This document shows, piece by piece, positions 2,266 through 24,593 of a stretch of DNA of 25,873 bases. The stretch comes from a virus. The stretch is taken from positions 1-25,873 of the IMG/VR virus record IMGVR_UViG_3300008218_000042; one strand, written 5' to 3'. Numbering within the stretch: position 1 is the stretch's first letter; every line of letters begins with the position of its first letter. The notes under the pieces are model-generated. The model was given only the letters and a program-made list of their open reading frames with translations. It was not told the origin of the DNA and ran no database searches. The position numbers and the translations under genes are program-made.

Positions 2266-2937
2266 ATGAACGAAGCCGACCGCAATCTGTCGGTGCGCTT
2301 TTGGCTGCACCCCAAGGAAAACCCCCGCAAGTCGAAAGAGGCCGGGCGACCGATCTACGACGAGGTGGAAATGGTCAGCATCATGGCCCCCGGCAACACC
2401 AAGACGGAGTTCACCGGCCGCGCTCACAGTATGCATTACGATGCCAACGAGCAGCGCCAGCGCACCTATGCCGAGCGCTTTGCCGAGCATTATTCCCAGT
2501 TCAAGGCCGGGCTGGAAGAGCAGGTGCAGGGCACGCCCCTGAGCGAAGCTGCCTTCCTGTCGGTCGGGCAGCGCGCGGAGATGCGGGCCAAGCAGATCAA
2601 GACCGTGGAGCAGCTGGCCGCAATGTCGGACCGCGATATTCAGAAGATGGGCATGGGCTTTCGCAAGCACGTCGACGCGGCGCGCGCCTATCTCGACACC
2701 GCCAACGGCACCTCCGTCATGACCAAGGAAATCGAGGAACTGCGCCGTCAGATCGCGGCGTTGCAGGCGTCCGGCCCGGCTGTGCAAGCCCCGGAGCCTG
2801 AGACGGACCAGTTCGACCAGATGGCCGACGAGGACCTGAAGAACATGCTGACGGATGCAGGGGTCACCGTAGACAACCGCTGGGGGCGCAAGCGTCTTCT
2901 AGAGGAAACCCGTTCGCTGGCGCGTGAAGCCGCCTGA
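2266..2937 (+). CDS. Conserved phage virion-region protein of unknown function
   Basis: This 223-residue protein starts at an ATG preceded by AAGGAAC. Its TGA overlaps the ATG of the next gene (TGATG), indicating translational coupling. Residues 1-60 look beta-rich; residues 65-140 are charged and probably helical. A short coiled coil follows (about 149-168, KEIEELRRQIAALQA). The C-terminal 35 residues (DEDLKNMLTDAGVTVDNRWG) resemble the small SAP/HeH-like helix-extended-helix modules seen at the ends of some phage proteins. Similar proteins occur between capsid and adaptor genes in related podoviruses, as far as I recall. The function is unknown; a head-completion or nucleic-acid-binding role is only a guess. 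Confidence 0.7.
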   Translation: MNEADRNLSVRFWLHPKENPRKSKEAGRPIYDEVEMVSIMAPGNTKTEFTGRAHSMHYDANEQRQRTYAERFAEHYSQFKAGLEEQVQGTPLSEAAFLSVGQRAEMRAKQIKTVEQLAAMSDRDIQKMGMGFRKHVDAARAYLDTANGTSVMTKEIEELRRQIAALQASGPAVQAPEPETDQFDQMADEDLKNMLTDAGVTVDNRWGRKRLLEETRSLAREAA

Positions 2938-3632
2938 TGGCACGCACCGCGTTGCAGATCGTCCGGGCAGCGGCGACCAAGCTGGGCATTGACCAGCCGG
3001 ACGTCCTGTTCACGGCGACGGACCGCACCGAGATCGAACTGCGCCAAGCGCTGATCGAGGCATCGGACAAGATCCTGCACATGCACGACTGGCAGGCCCT
3101 GCGGACGGTTGTAACGCATGACGGAGACGGCAGCACGACGCAATTCGCGTTGCCGTCCGACTATATCCGGATGCCTAAGGATGCGCGCGTCTGGTCGACC
3201 AAATGGCAGCTGACGCTGCATCACATCACGCCCGAAGAATGGCTGAACCTGGACGTTCGTGAGTTCGAGCTGGCCCGCGGGACATGGACGATCTACGGCG
3301 GCAACTTCGTCTACAAGCCCGCGCTGGATGCCGACGAAGACGCCAAGTTCTGGTACATCAGCCGGAATGTGGTTCTGGGGTCGGATCAGGTCGCCAAGGA
3401 AGAGTTCAGCGCCGACGACGACACCTACAAGCTGGACGACCGCGTGCTTGAATTGGTGCTGGTCTGGGTCTGGCGCCAGCAGAAGGGTCTGGATTACGCG
3501 GAAGAGATGCAGACGGCCGAATATGCCGTGTCCCGCGCCATGGCCCGCGACGGCGGCGCCCGCATCCTGACGCAATCCTCCCGGTCCGGCTACAATGCCG
3601 AAACCGCCTATCCGATCCGGGTCGAGCCGTGA
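2937..3632 (+). CDS. Head-tail adaptor protein (P22 gp4 / T7 gp11-like position)
   Basis: This 231-residue protein begins with helices bearing a pattern typical of podovirus adaptors (ALIEASDKILHMHDWQALR at about residues 38-56). It continues with a beta segment including FALPSDYIRMPKDARVW, and ends with a helix-rich part (VLELVLVWVWRQQKGLDYAE). The L-P-x-D-Y-x-R-M motif after a Trp-containing helix is a feature I associate with adaptor proteins that dock below the portal. The start overlaps the previous stop as TGATG. The stop overlaps the possible GTG start of the next gene. The adaptor would connect portal and tail after packaging. The assignment rests on remembered family patterns and gene order. 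Confidence 0.7.
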   Translation: MARTALQIVRAAATKLGIDQPDVLFTATDRTEIELRQALIEASDKILHMHDWQALRTVVTHDGDGSTTQFALPSDYIRMPKDARVWSTKWQLTLHHITPEEWLNLDVREFELARGTWTIYGGNFVYKPALDADEDAKFWYISRNVVLGSDQVAKEEFSADDDTYKLDDRVLELVLVWVWRQQKGLDYAEEMQTAEYAVSRAMARDGGARILTQSSRSGYNAETAYPIRVEP

Positions 3633-5485
3633 GACGCCCCATGCGCCGAAAGCAGGCGCAGACGATCAGCCTTCCCGCACCGACCCTCGGACTGGTGGAG
3701 AACCAGCCCGTGGCGGACAAGTCGGCAATGGGTGCGGAATGGCTGGAAAACTGGCTCCCCACGCAGCGCGGCCTGAAGATGCGCGGCGGGACGGTGCGAA
3801 CCTCCTTCATCGCGTCCGCCGTGAAGAAGCTGTTCCAGTTCGACGACGGCACCGGAGACCCGCGGTTCTTCGCCTCGTCGGCATCGCAGATATTCGACAT
3901 CTCGGACACGGCCACGGCGGCGGTCAACCGCAACGCGACCGCGCTGGTCTGGCGGCAGGGGCGATGGGGCCGCAATACCTGGGGCAAACTCGAACGCCCG
4001 GTTGCCTCGGGCTTCACGAGCGGTGATTGGGCGGTCCAGCAGGTAGGGACCTCGGGCGGGGACTTCCTGGTCGCGGTCAACGGGGCCGACACGGCGCAGA
4101 TTTACGACGGGACGTGGAACCCACTGACGGATGAGGCGATCAACGACCTTGCATTCGTGCAGATGGGCGCGGCCTTCGCTGTCGGGGAGACCGTAACCGG
4201 CGGGACCTCGGGGGCGACGGCTGAAATCCTCGGGTTTACCCAAAAGGCTACCCTGTCGGGAACGCTGAAGCTTGGCGCGATTACAGGAACGTTCGAGGAC
4301 GGCGAGATGCTGACCTCGGCCAGCGGGCAGGCGGTCGCAAGCGGCACCACGTCGGAAGCGTCAGCGATCACTCTGACGGGGGTCGACACGTCCACCCTGC
4401 GCCATGTCTGGTTGTATCAGAACCGGCTGTTTTTCGTGCAGAGCAACAGCTTGCGCGTGTGGTTCCTGCCTGCGGGCGCGGTCGGGGGCGCTGCGCAGGA
4501 CATATCTCTGGCTGGCGTGTTCCGGCGCGGCGGCAAGATACTCTTCGGCACGACGTGGAGCCTCGATAGCGGGGACGGGCTGGACGACAAATGCCTGTTC
4601 GTCACGGACCAAGGCGAGGTGGCCGTCTACAGCGGCACAAACCCCGCTGAGGCGGGCAATTGGTCATTTGAGGGCCGGTACGACATCGGGCGGCCTCTGG
4701 GACGTGACGCGGCCATACAGGCGGGCGGTGACGTGCTCATTGCCACGGATGACGGCATTGTCCCGATGAACGTGGCAATCAGCAAGGACCCGTCGCGGTT
4801 GTCGCTGGACGCGATATCACGACCGATCAAGATCACATGGGACGACGAGTCCCGCCGCGCGGGTGGCAACGTGGCGCTGGTGAAGTGGACTCAGGGCGAC
4901 CTGATGCTGTCGGTCTTTCCCGAGGCGGAACGGATGCTGACAGCCAACCTCGAAACTGGGGCATGGGCGATCCAGTCGGGATGGGCCGCAGATTGCGCAG
5001 GCATCTACAACGGGGCCTTGTTCGGGGGCCGATCCAACGGTGTGGTCTACAAGTTCGATACCGGCGGCACGGATGACGGCGCGCCCTTCACGGCCAAGCT
5101 TTGCTATCCGTTCCTCGATATGGGCGTCCCCGCTGACTACAAGGTGGCGCAGATGATGCGCGGCGCGTTCTTCGCCGACGACGCATTCGGGGCCCGCTAC
5201 AGCGTCTCCGTGGATTACAACGTGCGCTTCCCCATCGCGCCAGCTGCAGCGCCCTCCAGCCCCGTTCAGATGGTCTGGGGGACGGGTGTCTGGGGCGTCA
5301 ACGACTGGGCCGGGGCAACGGTGGGCGACGCCCGCCTCGGCGTGGTCGACAGGTGGGAGAGCGTCAGCGGCGCAGGTTATGCCATCGCGCCCATGGTGCA
5401 GATCACATCGGGCGGAACGACAAAACTGCCGGTGGAGCTGGTGCGACTGGATATCCTTGCAGAAGCGGGCGGCCGGGCGTCTTGA
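3629..5485 (+). CDS. Tail protein, P22 gp10-like packaged-DNA stabilisation family
   Basis: This 618-residue, beta-rich protein has the features of the large tail-hub or DNA-stabilisation proteins of podoviruses. It has an N-terminal NWLPTQRGLKMRGGTVRTS motif (residues about 42-60), a TSGDWAVQQ...GGDFLVAVNGAD repeat unit, then HVWLYQNRLFFVQ and LFGTTWSLDSGDGLDD, as in beta-propeller-type hub proteins. The start is uncertain. GTG 3629 overlaps the upstream stop, while ATG 3641 is four codons later; neither has a strong ribosome site. The stop overlaps a TTG start for the next gene (TTGA). The protein would form part of the short tail that plugs the portal. The gp10 label is by position and remembered similarity. 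Confidence 0.7.
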   Translation: MRRPMRRKQAQTISLPAPTLGLVENQPVADKSAMGAEWLENWLPTQRGLKMRGGTVRTSFIASAVKKLFQFDDGTGDPRFFASSASQIFDISDTATAAVNRNATALVWRQGRWGRNTWGKLERPVASGFTSGDWAVQQVGTSGGDFLVAVNGADTAQIYDGTWNPLTDEAINDLAFVQMGAAFAVGETVTGGTSGATAEILGFTQKATLSGTLKLGAITGTFEDGEMLTSASGQAVASGTTSEASAITLTGVDTSTLRHVWLYQNRLFFVQSNSLRVWFLPAGAVGGAAQDISLAGVFRRGGKILFGTTWSLDSGDGLDDKCLFVTDQGEVAVYSGTNPAEAGNWSFEGRYDIGRPLGRDAAIQAGGDVLIATDDGIVPMNVAISKDPSRLSLDAISRPIKITWDDESRRAGGNVALVKWTQGDLMLSVFPEAERMLTANLETGAWAIQSGWAADCAGIYNGALFGGRSNGVVYKFDTGGTDDGAPFTAKLCYPFLDMGVPADYKVAQMMRGAFFADDAFGARYSVSVDYNVRFPIAPAAAPSSPVQMVWGTGVWGVNDWAGATVGDARLGVVDRWESVSGAGYAIAPMVQITSGGTTKLPVELVRLDILAEAGGRAS

Positions 5486-16289: not shown

Positions 16290-16365
16290 TGGTGCTGGTC
16301 CGTGGACTTGAACCCCGCGCATCCTGATTACAAATCAGGCGCTCTACCTGATGAGCTAGACCAGC
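16290..16365 (-). tRNA. tRNA-Thr (anticodon TGT), CCA encoded
   Basis: The 76-base minus-strand gene folds as a complete tRNA. The acceptor stem GCTGGTC/GACCAGC is perfect over 7 bp. The D stem is GCTC/GAGC with GG in the loop. The anticodon stem is CCTGA/TCAGG with loop TTTGTAA, giving anticodon TGT for Thr codon ACA. The T loop is TTCAAGT. The discriminator base A is followed by an encoded CCA. The T stem CGGGG/CCACG has one G-A mismatch. It lies wholly between phage genes at the end of the leftward unit, so it looks phage-borne. ACA is generally a rare Thr codon in GC-rich genomes, which suggests a translation-support role (inference). Confidence 0.9.
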
Positions 16366-18851: not shown

Positions 18852-19793
18852 ATGGCCTCGATACGAAAGCACGGCAAGGGGTGGCAGGCGCAAATCGCCA
18901 AGGCGGGCGTCCGTCGATCCCGGAAATTCCCCACGAAGCGCGAGGCGCAGGACTGGGCGGCGCGGGAAGAACACTTGATCAGCGAAGGGGCGGGGCGATA
19001 CGGCCCCGGCACGCTGGCCGATCTGTTCCGGCGCTACGCGAAAGAGGTCAGCCCCCAGAAGCGCGGGGCCAGATACGAACAGCTGCGCCTGGAACGCATC
19101 GCGAAGGACCCGCTGGGCGCCATCGCCGTGAAGGACGCGCGGCCCGGCGACTTCGCGGACTGGCGGGACCGGCGGCTGACAGAGGTCAAGCCCGCCTCCG
19201 TCTTGCGCGAGATGCAGATTCTTTCGGCCGTGATGATCCGGGCGCAGAAGGAATGGGGCGTCATCCCCACGAACCCGTTGCGTGACGTTCAGCGACCCAA
19301 GCCGCCGCCGCATCGGGACCGGCGCGTGTCGGCAGACGAGATTGCCATGCTGCGCGCCGCGGCGCGGTCGCCTGCGGAGCGCATGGCGGTGATGTCGTTC
19401 GAGTTCGCCATTGAGACGGGAATGCGGCAGGGCGAAATTGCCCGCTTGCGACGTGCGGACATAACCGATTCCGTCGCGCGCCTGACGCAGACCAAGAACG
19501 GGCACCCGCGCGATGTGCCTTTGTCTTCGGCGGCGCTGGCGATCCTGGCGCAGCTTCCCGACGATCTTTTCGGGCTGGAAGCCGCGTCTATCGATGTGCA
19601 TTTCCGTCGCGTGCGGGACCGAACCCCCATCGAGAACCTGACGTACCACGACAGCAGGCATGAAGCGATCACACGCATGGCGCGGAAGCTGGACGTTCTG
19701 GCCTTGGCACGGGTGGTTGGGCATAGGGATGTGCGCCAATTGTCTATCTATTACAACGAAAGCGCCGCCGATCTAGCGAAGCGACTTGGTTAG
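18852..19793 (+). CDS. int: Tyrosine-type site-specific integrase
   Basis: This 313-residue protein shows the full active-site set of tyrosine recombinases: R192 (ETGMRQGEIARLR), K215 (TKNG), H266 and R269 (YHDSRHEA), H291 (VVGHRDV) and the probable nucleophile Y300 (LSIYYN). The N-terminal part (ASIRKHGKGWQAQIAKAGVR) is the short arm-binding domain of many phage integrases, followed by a SAM-like core-binding part (about 50-145). It would integrate and excise the phage genome. It faces rightward inside the leftward block, and its 3' end overlaps the excisionase-like gene by 21 bases tail to tail. No strong ribosome site precedes ATG 18852, so expression may be low. Confidence 0.93.
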   Translation: MASIRKHGKGWQAQIAKAGVRRSRKFPTKREAQDWAAREEHLISEGAGRYGPGTLADLFRRYAKEVSPQKRGARYEQLRLERIAKDPLGAIAVKDARPGDFADWRDRRLTEVKPASVLREMQILSAVMIRAQKEWGVIPTNPLRDVQRPKPPPHRDRRVSADEIAMLRAAARSPAERMAVMSFEFAIETGMRQGEIARLRRADITDSVARLTQTKNGHPRDVPLSSAALAILAQLPDDLFGLEAASIDVHFRRVRDRTPIENLTYHDSRHEAITRMARKLDVLALARVVGHRDVRQLSIYYNESAADLAKRLG

Positions 19794-22325: not shown

Positions 22326-22582
22326 TGCGCACCCCCGTGCACCCGGACGACTTTCATCACGTCGCCGCGCCGGACCTTGCCGCGGAACTGGAACTTCTTT
22401 CGGGAGGGCCAGTAATCCAACCGCTGGCCGTTCACGTCGCGGGACCAGTGAAATTCGGTGTGCTTCGTCCAGCCGCCGTCGTCGGCGCTCTCGGCATCTG
22501 CCTTGAAGCGGGCACGGTCGGCGTCAAACTTCTCTTTGCTGTGTTCCTTGAGGGCATCCCATATCGGGTCACGGTTGTTCAT
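22319..22582 (-). CDS. Small conserved phage protein of unknown function
   Basis: This 87-residue protein starts at ATG 22582 (MNNRDPIWDALKEH) behind GGAGGG, overlapping the upstream stop as ATGA. A charged helix (HSKEKFDADRARFKAD) leads to a beta segment (WTKHTEFHWSRDVNGQRLDY, then WPSRKKFQFRGKVRRGDV). The W-T-x-H-T-x-x-H-W pattern and the W-P-S-R-x-K-x-x-x-R-G stretch are familiar to me from small phage proteins of unknown role. The stop overlaps the DUF1364-type gene. Confidence 0.7.
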   Translation of the reverse strand: MNNRDPIWDALKEHSKEKFDADRARFKADAESADDGGWTKHTEFHWSRDVNGQRLDYWPSRKKFQFRGKVRRGDVMKVVRVHGGAQC

Positions 22583-23085
22583 GCCGCCGCCCTCCGCAGG
22601 TCTTCCGGGGCCACGCCGATCTGCGCTGCGATCCATTCCAAAATGGCGGTCTTCGATGCCTGAAATTGCTCGGCGCCCATTGCACGGTAGGATTGGCTCA
22701 GGGGCGTCCAGACGGTCACGACGGGGCCGGTGACGCGGCCAAGGGCGTATCCCTCTGCCTTCGCCTCGGCGGCTACCAGCGCGGCCTTCACGCGGCCGGC
22801 TGCCGCCTTGCTCCCGCAGTCGATAACTGTGGTGGTCGAATAGCCTGTGGCGATCAGGGCGTGCTTGCGCAAGGTCTCAGGCGTCTCGGACCACGGCATC
22901 ATTGCAAGATGCTCAGGCAGGTTTGCCCATGCGTCCTTCACCCATGCAAACTGGTGCTTGTGCGTGGCTGGGCTGCGCATCCGTTCGATGGACACGATGA
23001 CCGCCTCGCCTTCGTCAAGATCGGGCGACTGGTTCGTCAGCAGGCGCAGAACGCCGTCCTGCCAGCGGGCGCGATATTCGGTCAT
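22579..23085 (-). CDS. Conserved phage protein of unknown function
   Basis: The 168-residue protein starts at ATG 23085 behind a strong AAGGAGGTC site, overlapping the TGA end of the interrupted gene upstream (ATGA). The central part (HKHQFAWVKDAWANLPE, then ETLRKHALIATGYSTTTVID) and the end (PLSQSYRAMGAEQFQASKTA) match a protein found beside DUF1364-type genes in several phages, as I recall. A pattern of H-x-x-F-A-x-x-x-x-A-W-x-N-L-P-E is characteristic. The function is unknown; a link to recombination is suggested only by position next to exonuclease and annealing genes. Confidence 0.75.
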   Translation of the reverse strand: MTEYRARWQDGVLRLLTNQSPDLDEGEAVIVSIERMRSPATHKHQFAWVKDAWANLPEHLAMMPWSETPETLRKHALIATGYSTTTVIDCGSKAAAGRVKAALVAAEAKAEGYALGRVTGPVVTVWTPLSQSYRAMGAEQFQASKTAILEWIAAQIGVAPEDLRRAAA

Positions 23086-23252
23086 GCTGCGACCTCCTTC
23101 CTCAAGGTATCGGCAATCTGTTTTGCGGCTTCCCGCACGGTCTCGTCTCACTTGGCGTCGATGCCGAGGGTTCCCCACGCTTGGCGCAGGGCTTCCTCGC
23201 TTGTGGAGCGGGCCAGCCGTAGGATTACGAAGGCGCGGCCCGCCGGGGTCAT
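23082..23252 (-). pseudogene. Small early gene interrupted by an in-frame TGA
   Basis: The frame from ATG 23252 to TGA 23082 would encode 55 residues if TGA 23148-23150 were a sense codon. Part 1 (34 residues) reads MTPAGRAFVILRLARSTSEE to LGIDAK; after the TGA the frame continues DETVREAAKQIADTLRKEVA. Both ends are coupled to neighbours by ATGA overlaps: the start overlaps the exonuclease stop, and the end overlaps the ATG of the gene at 22579. That shows the intact unit once spanned the whole stretch. The C-terminal part is a clean helix. Nonsense mutation, sequencing error or readthrough are possible. Confidence 0.65.
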
Positions 23253-23857
23253 GCGGCTTCCTTCGTCCGAAGCTTGGCGATCACGGCATCCACGTCGGCC
23301 AAGAAGGCTTCGACAGCGGCGGCGATCTCCGCTTGCAGCTTGGCATCCGCTTCTACGCGCTGGATGCTGACCTGAAGGTCGTCGGGAAGGTCAGGGTTAA
23401 AGCTGACAAAATCGCACCAGCCGCGCCCCGTGCAGGCCATCTGCCATTGCATCTGCAAAACGTAGCCGCGTTTGATGTCGCCCCCGGTCAGCACCCGAAT
23501 GTGTTCGGTCGGCTGCGGACACTTGATCTCGACCAGACCGTCATCCCCAACCAGCCCGTCAGGTGATGCTCCGCTCATGGCGATGGATGGGTGCGGGATG
23601 AAGCCCGTTTCCTCGACCATCAATCCGGTCTGCATCGTGTAGACCGCGCGCGCCTGGGGTTCGGTATCGGTGCCGTGCTGCATCGCCGCGCTGACGTGCA
23701 TCTCGGTCGGACGCCCCGTCAGGCGTTCGCAGACCAGCTGGGACCGATAGTTCTGATAACCGGCAGTGGTCGCCTTCATCATCACGTCTCCGATCCGGGA
23801 CGCGGTGACGCGGCCAAGGCGTTCTTCCAGCCATTCCTGTGTGCCCTGTTCAGCCAT
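23249..23857 (-). CDS. YqaJ / lambda-type exonuclease
   Basis: The 202-residue protein starts at ATG 23857 behind GGGAGGAAG. EWLEERLGRVTASRIGDVM opens the fold. SPDG (D100) and LVEIKCP (E110, K112) form the D...E-x-K active site of lambda-type exonucleases; the HGTDTEP motif (E66) and LQMQWQM follow the family order. The enzyme would digest 5' ends of double-stranded DNA to leave 3' single strands for its partner annealing protein, which is encoded just upstream with an 8-base overlap. Length is normal for YqaJ proteins. Confidence 0.9.
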   Translation of the reverse strand: MAEQGTQEWLEERLGRVTASRIGDVMMKATTAGYQNYRSQLVCERLTGRPTEMHVSAAMQHGTDTEPQARAVYTMQTGLMVEETGFIPHPSIAMSGASPDGLVGDDGLVEIKCPQPTEHIRVLTGGDIKRGYVLQMQWQMACTGRGWCDFVSFNPDLPDDLQVSIQRVEADAKLQAEIAAAVEAFLADVDAVIAKLRTKEAA

Positions 23858-24593
23858 TGGCTTCCTCCCGGCGCTTGATGTTGATTTCAAGGTTATTCTT
23901 GACCTTGGCGAAGGACGCGGCGGGAAGATCGGTGAGGTCCGTGATGCGTTCGGCTTTACAGACGACCTCTGCGGGCAAGCCCGCCCGTTCGATCATGTCG
24001 CGAAGTTCCCGGTATTGGCTTTCGGTGATGGTTTCGCCCCGGCCGGCTGCCTGGCCGTCGTCGTCGGTGTCATCGCCAAGAGATAAGCCAAGAATTGCCT
24101 GCGCCGTGTAACGCTGGCCGTAGGTCTGGGTAGAGCCGACAGCTTGCACCGCGTTCTTGCTGCCGCTGTTGTCGGCGGGAAGGTCAATGCTTGTGCTTTC
24201 GCTGTGCCCGTCTTTGTGCATCAGCTTGGCAGTGACGACGATCTTGTTCCCGCTGGTGTCGATGGCGAAAGTCAAAGCCAAACCGTTTTCCGACAGGATC
24301 GGACGGGTGTGGCTGATGATATCCTTGAGTGTGGCATACGGCTTATTGTTGTGGCCCTTGCCGTTCAGGGGGATCGTCGGGAACTGCGCCGATGCGCAAG
24401 CAAAGGCGGACGCAAATGCAGCCTTTGCCTGCGCAGTTTCGTGACGCTCCTTCATGTCGAGCATCTTCTCGAGCTTCGCGAGGTCCGACTGCGGATCCAT
24501 GGCGATGCGTTCGATCATCGATATCATTGGGTCGTGGGGAGCGATGTTCTCTGTGGGCATCTGCTCTACGCGTGTTGCGAGTTCAGCGTTCAT
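23850..24593 (-). CDS. erf: ERF-family single-strand annealing protein
   Basis: This 247-residue protein starts at ATG 24593 behind GGAGGAC, overlapping the upstream stop as ATGA. Residues about 60-170 are the ERF core: FPTIPLNGKG...YATLKDI (71-92), then GSTQTYGQRYTAQAILGLS (153-171). After that comes an acidic stretch (GDDTDDDGQ) and a variable helical tail. ERF proteins form rings on single-stranded DNA and drive annealing in phage recombination. Together with the downstream exonuclease this is a two-component recombination system. Confidence 0.88.
   Translation of the reverse strand: MNAELATRVEQMPTENIAPHDPMISMIERIAMDPQSDLAKLEKMLDMKERHETAQAKAAFASAFACASAQFPTIPLNGKGHNNKPYATLKDIISHTRPILSENGLALTFAIDTSGNKIVVTAKLMHKDGHSESTSIDLPADNSGSKNAVQAVGSTQTYGQRYTAQAILGLSLGDDTDDDGQAAGRGETITESQYRELRDMIERAGLPAEVVCKAERITDLTDLPAASFAKVKNNLEINIKRREEANG

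Follow-up and report, generated by a model that had tools for sequence, protein, structure and literature searches.

We analyzed a window of 25,873 bases, a virus contig whose early operon contains a small gene interrupted by an in-frame TGA codon. On balance, this gene is probably a nonsense-broken, dispensable recombination accessory gene, and the ninB-like gene that follows it appears to be kept translated by its own ribosome-binding site. By profile comparison, the family to which it belongs corresponds to the C-terminal tail domain of phage single-strand annealing proteins (SSAPs) of the ERF and Rad52-like types, encoded here as a protein of its own.

Genomic Context of the Interrupted Gene

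The window represents a temperate phage of alphaproteobacteria and encodes, among other proteins, an integrase, a major head protein, and an endolysin. Its structural genes have no near relative in the phage collection. A complete tRNA-Thr(tgt) gene (16290–16365, minus strand), a possible component of the attachment site, occupies a region with few genes that separates the lysis genes from the integrase (18852–19793, plus strand). L220, a contig extending the window, encodes pentapeptide-like (ADLSGADLRGADL) repeats and, alongside, carries short DNA repeats that are nearly identical to one another and form a long array (2386–3030 and 3356–3943).

The early operon lies on the minus strand and is of the ERF/YqaJ/NinB recombination type: an ERF gene is followed by a YqaJ exonuclease gene, the small gene, a ninB-like gene and further small genes. 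The ERF single-strand annealing protein (23850–24593; PF04404, E = 2.6e-16) is intact and lacks the tail domain described below (best value in the tail comparison, E = 5.4). The preceding YqaJ-type exonuclease (23249–23857; PF09588, E = 1.6e-26) is intact as well. The next gene (22579–23085) encodes an intact NinB-like protein of 168 amino acids which matches phrog_15346 (E = 2.2e-58) and, weakly, phrog_319 (E = 1.5e-4), the family of the NinB/Orf recombination mediator; a Pfam search of this protein gave no match to PF05772 (NinB). Homologues of it are present in Paracoccus phages.

The small gene (23082–23252, minus strand) starts with ATG at 23252–23250, meets a TGA at codon 35 (23150–23148), and is closed by a second TGA at 23084–23082, so that the frame comprises 55 sense codons, or 57 codons with the internal and final stops. 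Its start codon overlaps the exonuclease stop (23251–23249) and its end overlaps the ATG of the ninB-like gene (23085–23083), in both cases as ATGA. The original prediction of a coupled 55-codon gene with a single in-frame TGA and functional neighbors was accurate to the base in the record: both joints are present, and the exonuclease and the NinB-like protein are intact. Codons 1–34 (23151–23252) specify the expected truncated product MTPAGRAFVILRLARSTSEEALRQAWGTLGIDAK. The post-stop half (23085–23147) consists of 21 open codons, DETVREAAKQIADTLRKEVAA, with an in-frame GTG at 23138–23136, 9 nt after the TGA. This half also contains a Shine–Dalgarno-like sequence, AAGGAGGT (23092–23099), with a spacing of about 7 nt to the ninB-like ATG.

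Intact Homologues Read across the Stop Position

Direct searches with the read-through protein returned only an identical contig among viral contigs, and the phage collection gave no useful match. A search of genomes of the Rhodobacter family detected two homologues, in L207 and L208. Each precedes a ninB-type gene within a recombination gene cluster, extends across the stop position, and has overlapping joints. Profile searches added homologues in L010 (Sulfitobacter phage pCB2047-A), L216, L223/L226, and L221. The intact genes of L207, L208, L216, and L010 all adjoin recombination genes and read across the stop position. The gene order of L221 is the same as that of the window (ERF, YqaJ, small gene, NinB), with 148/241 identical residues in ERF (61%) and 152/201 in YqaJ (76%), and its small gene (L221:3001–3156) is intact and encodes 51 amino acids.

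Homologues are 51–62 residues in length or longer, and none contains an internal stop. At the position of the TGA, Arg is found in five of the six distinct sequences (L207, L208, L010, L221, and L223/L226) and Ile in the sixth (L216); neither Trp nor a stop occurs there in any of them. A search through the stop had been proposed as a check of the original prediction, and it yielded intact homologues rather than proteins that end naturally at residue 34. In pCB2047-A, the stand-alone gene (L010:1954–2121, about 22579–22746 of the record) is unannotated and lies between SUAG_00043 and SUAG_00044; it has a possible GTG start that overlaps the preceding gene. No homologues of the family turned up in 385 genomes searched at class level, suggesting that the family is either rare or confined to Rhodobacterales-like hosts and the phages of such hosts.

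Several other candidates were rejected. In the closest NinB relatives, the small genes that precede ninB (Shpa gp36, Pkon1 p12, L004/L022, L015, L016, L018, L019, and L092) were considered as homologues ending near residue 34. They were dropped because their alignment with the window gene is poor (20–27% for the four that were aligned), as against the end-to-end matches of L207, L208, L216, and L221. A candidate in L209 (E = 0.0088) sits in a 755-residue frame and was not accepted as a family member. Pfam matches of the read-through protein to Ribosomal_L14e and GP120 were below the cut-offs and were taken as chance, and a match to phrog_9106 (E = 0.0098 with Trp at the stop, 0.058 with X) was not used.

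The Family Resembles the Tail Domain of Phage SSAPs

A profile of the stand-alone proteins, built without the window sequence, matched the extreme C-termini of longer proteins in L224 (E = 8.4e-10), L217 (3.3e-7), L027 (3.6e-7), L006 (3.4e-6), and L207 (2.8e-4). Pfam analysis classified these tail-bearing proteins as ERF (L224, L217, L006, and L207) or Rad52-like (L027). The structural model of the L221 orthologue (pLDDT 94.8) is a three-helix bundle with helices at residues 3–14, 19–28, 31–34, and 37–50. In a viral fold library, it was matched best by a recombinase of the RecT type (TMq 0.91, rmsd 0.8, probability 1.00), and further ssDNA-annealing, RecT, and ERF proteins came lower in the list; with a query of this small size, all Foldseek E-values stayed above 0.1. 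A Foldseek search of the PDB with the same model gave no match at E ≤ 0.001. We found no Pfam or PHROG entry for the family.

The window gene and all of its stand-alone homologues are separate genes that lack a fused annealing domain, and the ERF protein of the window, like most of the partner SSAPs, has no tail. L207, a prophage-like locus, has both forms (2340–3083, minus strand): a tail-fused ERF and a stand-alone tail gene. Because fused and stand-alone tails occur together there, simple complementation of a tail-less SSAP by the small protein does not follow from this pattern.

Both Halves Belong to One Gene

To examine the two sides of the TGA separately, we used a profile of four stand-alone homologues from which the window was left out. 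Among 27,508 ORFs taken from the fetched loci, it found codons 1–34 at E = 1.8e-6, and the score rose from 31.5 bits to 39.6 once the 21 post-stop codons were added. This score was reached with 37 of 5000 shuffled tails and with 2 of 5000 stop-free stretches drawn at random from this phage. With a three-sequence profile, 59 of 5000 shuffles scored as well as the post-stop half; a wider profile that included the SSAP tails gave a weaker result (242/5000 shuffles and 14/5000 random stretches). Judged by these controls, the similarity of the post-stop half to the family tail appears to be real but modest.

Codon usage was scored with a model trained on the phage's own genes. The post-stop half scored 8.26, close to the coding mean of 8.03 (sd 4.72), whereas noncoding control frames had a mean of –9.50 and none exceeded it. 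These values and the profile match of codons 1–34 bear out the original view that the sequence looks coding on both sides of the TGA, and we conclude that the small ORF and the frame behind it are one gene interrupted by a stop.

The two halves have not been conserved equally. The first half scores normally in the family profile (33.3 bits), whereas the tail half adds only 6.8 bits, the least in the family, as compared with 11.3–22.4 in intact members. It keeps the D, V, R, and AAK of the family tail. By these scores the tail is still recognizable and coding-like, yet loosened, and is the most diverged of the family. Such divergence bears on the claim that the broken state must be recent: the retained codon usage and frame are in line with it, but an older break or a mosaic junction would fit the diverged tail too.

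Reading the TGA as Trp, as had been suggested, is disfavored by the residues seen at this position in the homologues and by the profile, which gives 38.6 bits with Trp, 39.6 with a neutral X, and 42.8 with Arg.

A Probable Broken Accessory Gene and Its Alternatives

An intact gene of this family would encode a three-helix protein of about 50–60 residues, that is, an SSAP tail domain made separately beside ninB. By analogy with Red-beta, such a protein is probably a helper that connects the annealing protein, the exonuclease, or SSB at recombination intermediates. In the window, the TGA would end translation between the second and third helices. On the L221 model, codons 1–34 would provide helices 1 and 2 and the post-stop half helix 3; since the stop separates them, the 34-residue product should not fold into the bundle, and we infer that the gene is probably inactive. 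The strong ribosome-binding site of the ninB-like gene, AAGGAGGT, sits inside the dead half, so the NinB-like protein should still be translated and the polar effect should be small. Given little polarity, loss of the helper could well be tolerable to the phage. The fully coding-like codon usage behind the stop, in a frame that runs to the exact ATGA joint, speaks against a broken gene, as it is unexpected if the gene died long ago.

A rival explanation, to be taken seriously although we regard it as unlikely, is that the stop is a scar of illegitimate recombination and not a point mutation: the first half would derive from the ERF/YqaJ block and the second from a foreign ninB cassette. The NinB-like protein of the window (22579–23085) has no meaningful alignment with that of L221 (3153–3542) despite 61–76% identity in ERF and YqaJ, indicating that a cassette has been exchanged between the exonuclease and ninB. 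DNA similarity to Paracoccus phages begins 11–22 nt ahead of the ninB-like ATG, the slot before ninB is occupied in relatives by many unrelated small genes, and a post-stop half that is the least family-like tail and yet fully coding-like would suit such a junction. On the other hand, this half fits the family tail better than all but the 37 shuffled tails and 2 random stretches counted above, and comparison with 10 stand-in genes revealed no single donor tail beyond what multiple testing allows (best p = 0.018). The slot itself is hypervariable: in L005, L006, L015, L016, L018, L019, L022, and L092 it carries different, probably helical proteins of 55–70 residues.

The TGA might also be a minority variant in the consensus or an error that arose in sequencing or assembly. 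The gene would then be intact in the phage, which would explain why it shows the codon usage, the frame, and the two coupled ends of a living gene. We consider this quite improbable. The same base is present in a second contig, IMGVR_UViG_3300025300_000361, with 100% identity along 4825 bp, although the two assemblies may have reads in common; the surrounding genes are free of errors; and the divergence of the tail exceeds what one error explains. When strain variants carrying a different codon at the TGA were sought with a back-translated query, only this identical contig was returned.

Functional readthrough, or a stop followed by a restart at the GTG behind it, appears very improbable. Either process would yield some of the complete protein, or else a split helix 3, and hence a low dosage of a needed protein, and the open, coding-like frame with a GTG so close to the TGA is compatible with both. 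UGA readthrough normally inserts Trp. The usual family residue is Arg instead, no relative has a stop at this codon, and the RNA structure downstream is ordinary (z = –1.4), with no stimulatory structure found. TGA is moreover the commonest stop of this phage, ending 17 of 21 genes, and none of the 21 genes examined contains an in-frame TGA. The only tRNA in the window, whose record is incomplete, is the tRNA-Thr(tgt), and no suppressor tRNA was detected there. Global recoding of TGA is excluded for practical purposes, and the earlier idea that the stop is tolerated through readthrough has gained no positive evidence. Slimmer still is the chance of a more specific version, in which the stand-alone tail serves the annealing protein, the exonuclease, and SSB as a trans-acting interaction module, its dosage being kept low by a leaky UGA or a restart that gives a two-piece or rare full-length product.

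Hardly any credence can be given to a complete and functional 34-residue protein followed by an intergenic leader for ninB, which would account for the position of the ninB ribosome-binding site in the post-stop stretch but is opposed by homologues that are all at least 51 amino acids long, by a third helix that forms part of the predicted bundle, and by coding-like codon usage past the stop.

Implications and Comparison with Known Systems

An internal stop is by itself an ordinary kind of phage gene decay. Of more interest is a by-product of the analysis, a family that is unnamed in PHROG and Pfam and that appears to encode the C-terminal tail of SSAPs separately beside ninB. If this tail works in trans, tail and annealing core would be exchangeable modules, and the damaged copy suggests that at least one phage can do without the tail module.

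The interrupted gene shares with phage TGA recoding an in-frame TGA inside a coding frame. It differs in being a single case in a phage that uses TGA as a regular stop and shows no suppressor tRNA in the window. As with lambda Orf/NinB, a NinB gene adjoins the small gene in the operon; the small gene itself is not NinB, however, and the NinB-like protein of the window matches NinB only remotely.

In lambda, the C-terminal domain of Red-beta is a three-helix bundle to which both lambda exonuclease and SSB bind, and its fold is reported to be similar to that of lambda Orf (PMC8303780). The Red-beta tail (residues 193–261) and the predicted fold of the intact family have in common a three-helix bundle beside exonuclease and Orf/NinB functions. 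Unlike this general arrangement, the sequences do not match, and the Red-beta tail was absent from the matches of the PDB fold search.

The small protein can also be compared with the tails of ERF (PF04404) and Rad52-like (PF04098) SSAPs. It differs from them in coming from a separate gene, and in the window translation would stop at codon 35, ahead of helix 3; what is left, a 34-residue product, lacks the complete, uninterrupted three-helix domain that is modeled for the intact family. Otherwise the two agree: the profile match extends over nearly the whole small protein (E down to 8.4e-10), both are predicted helical bundles, and both occur in the same type of operon.
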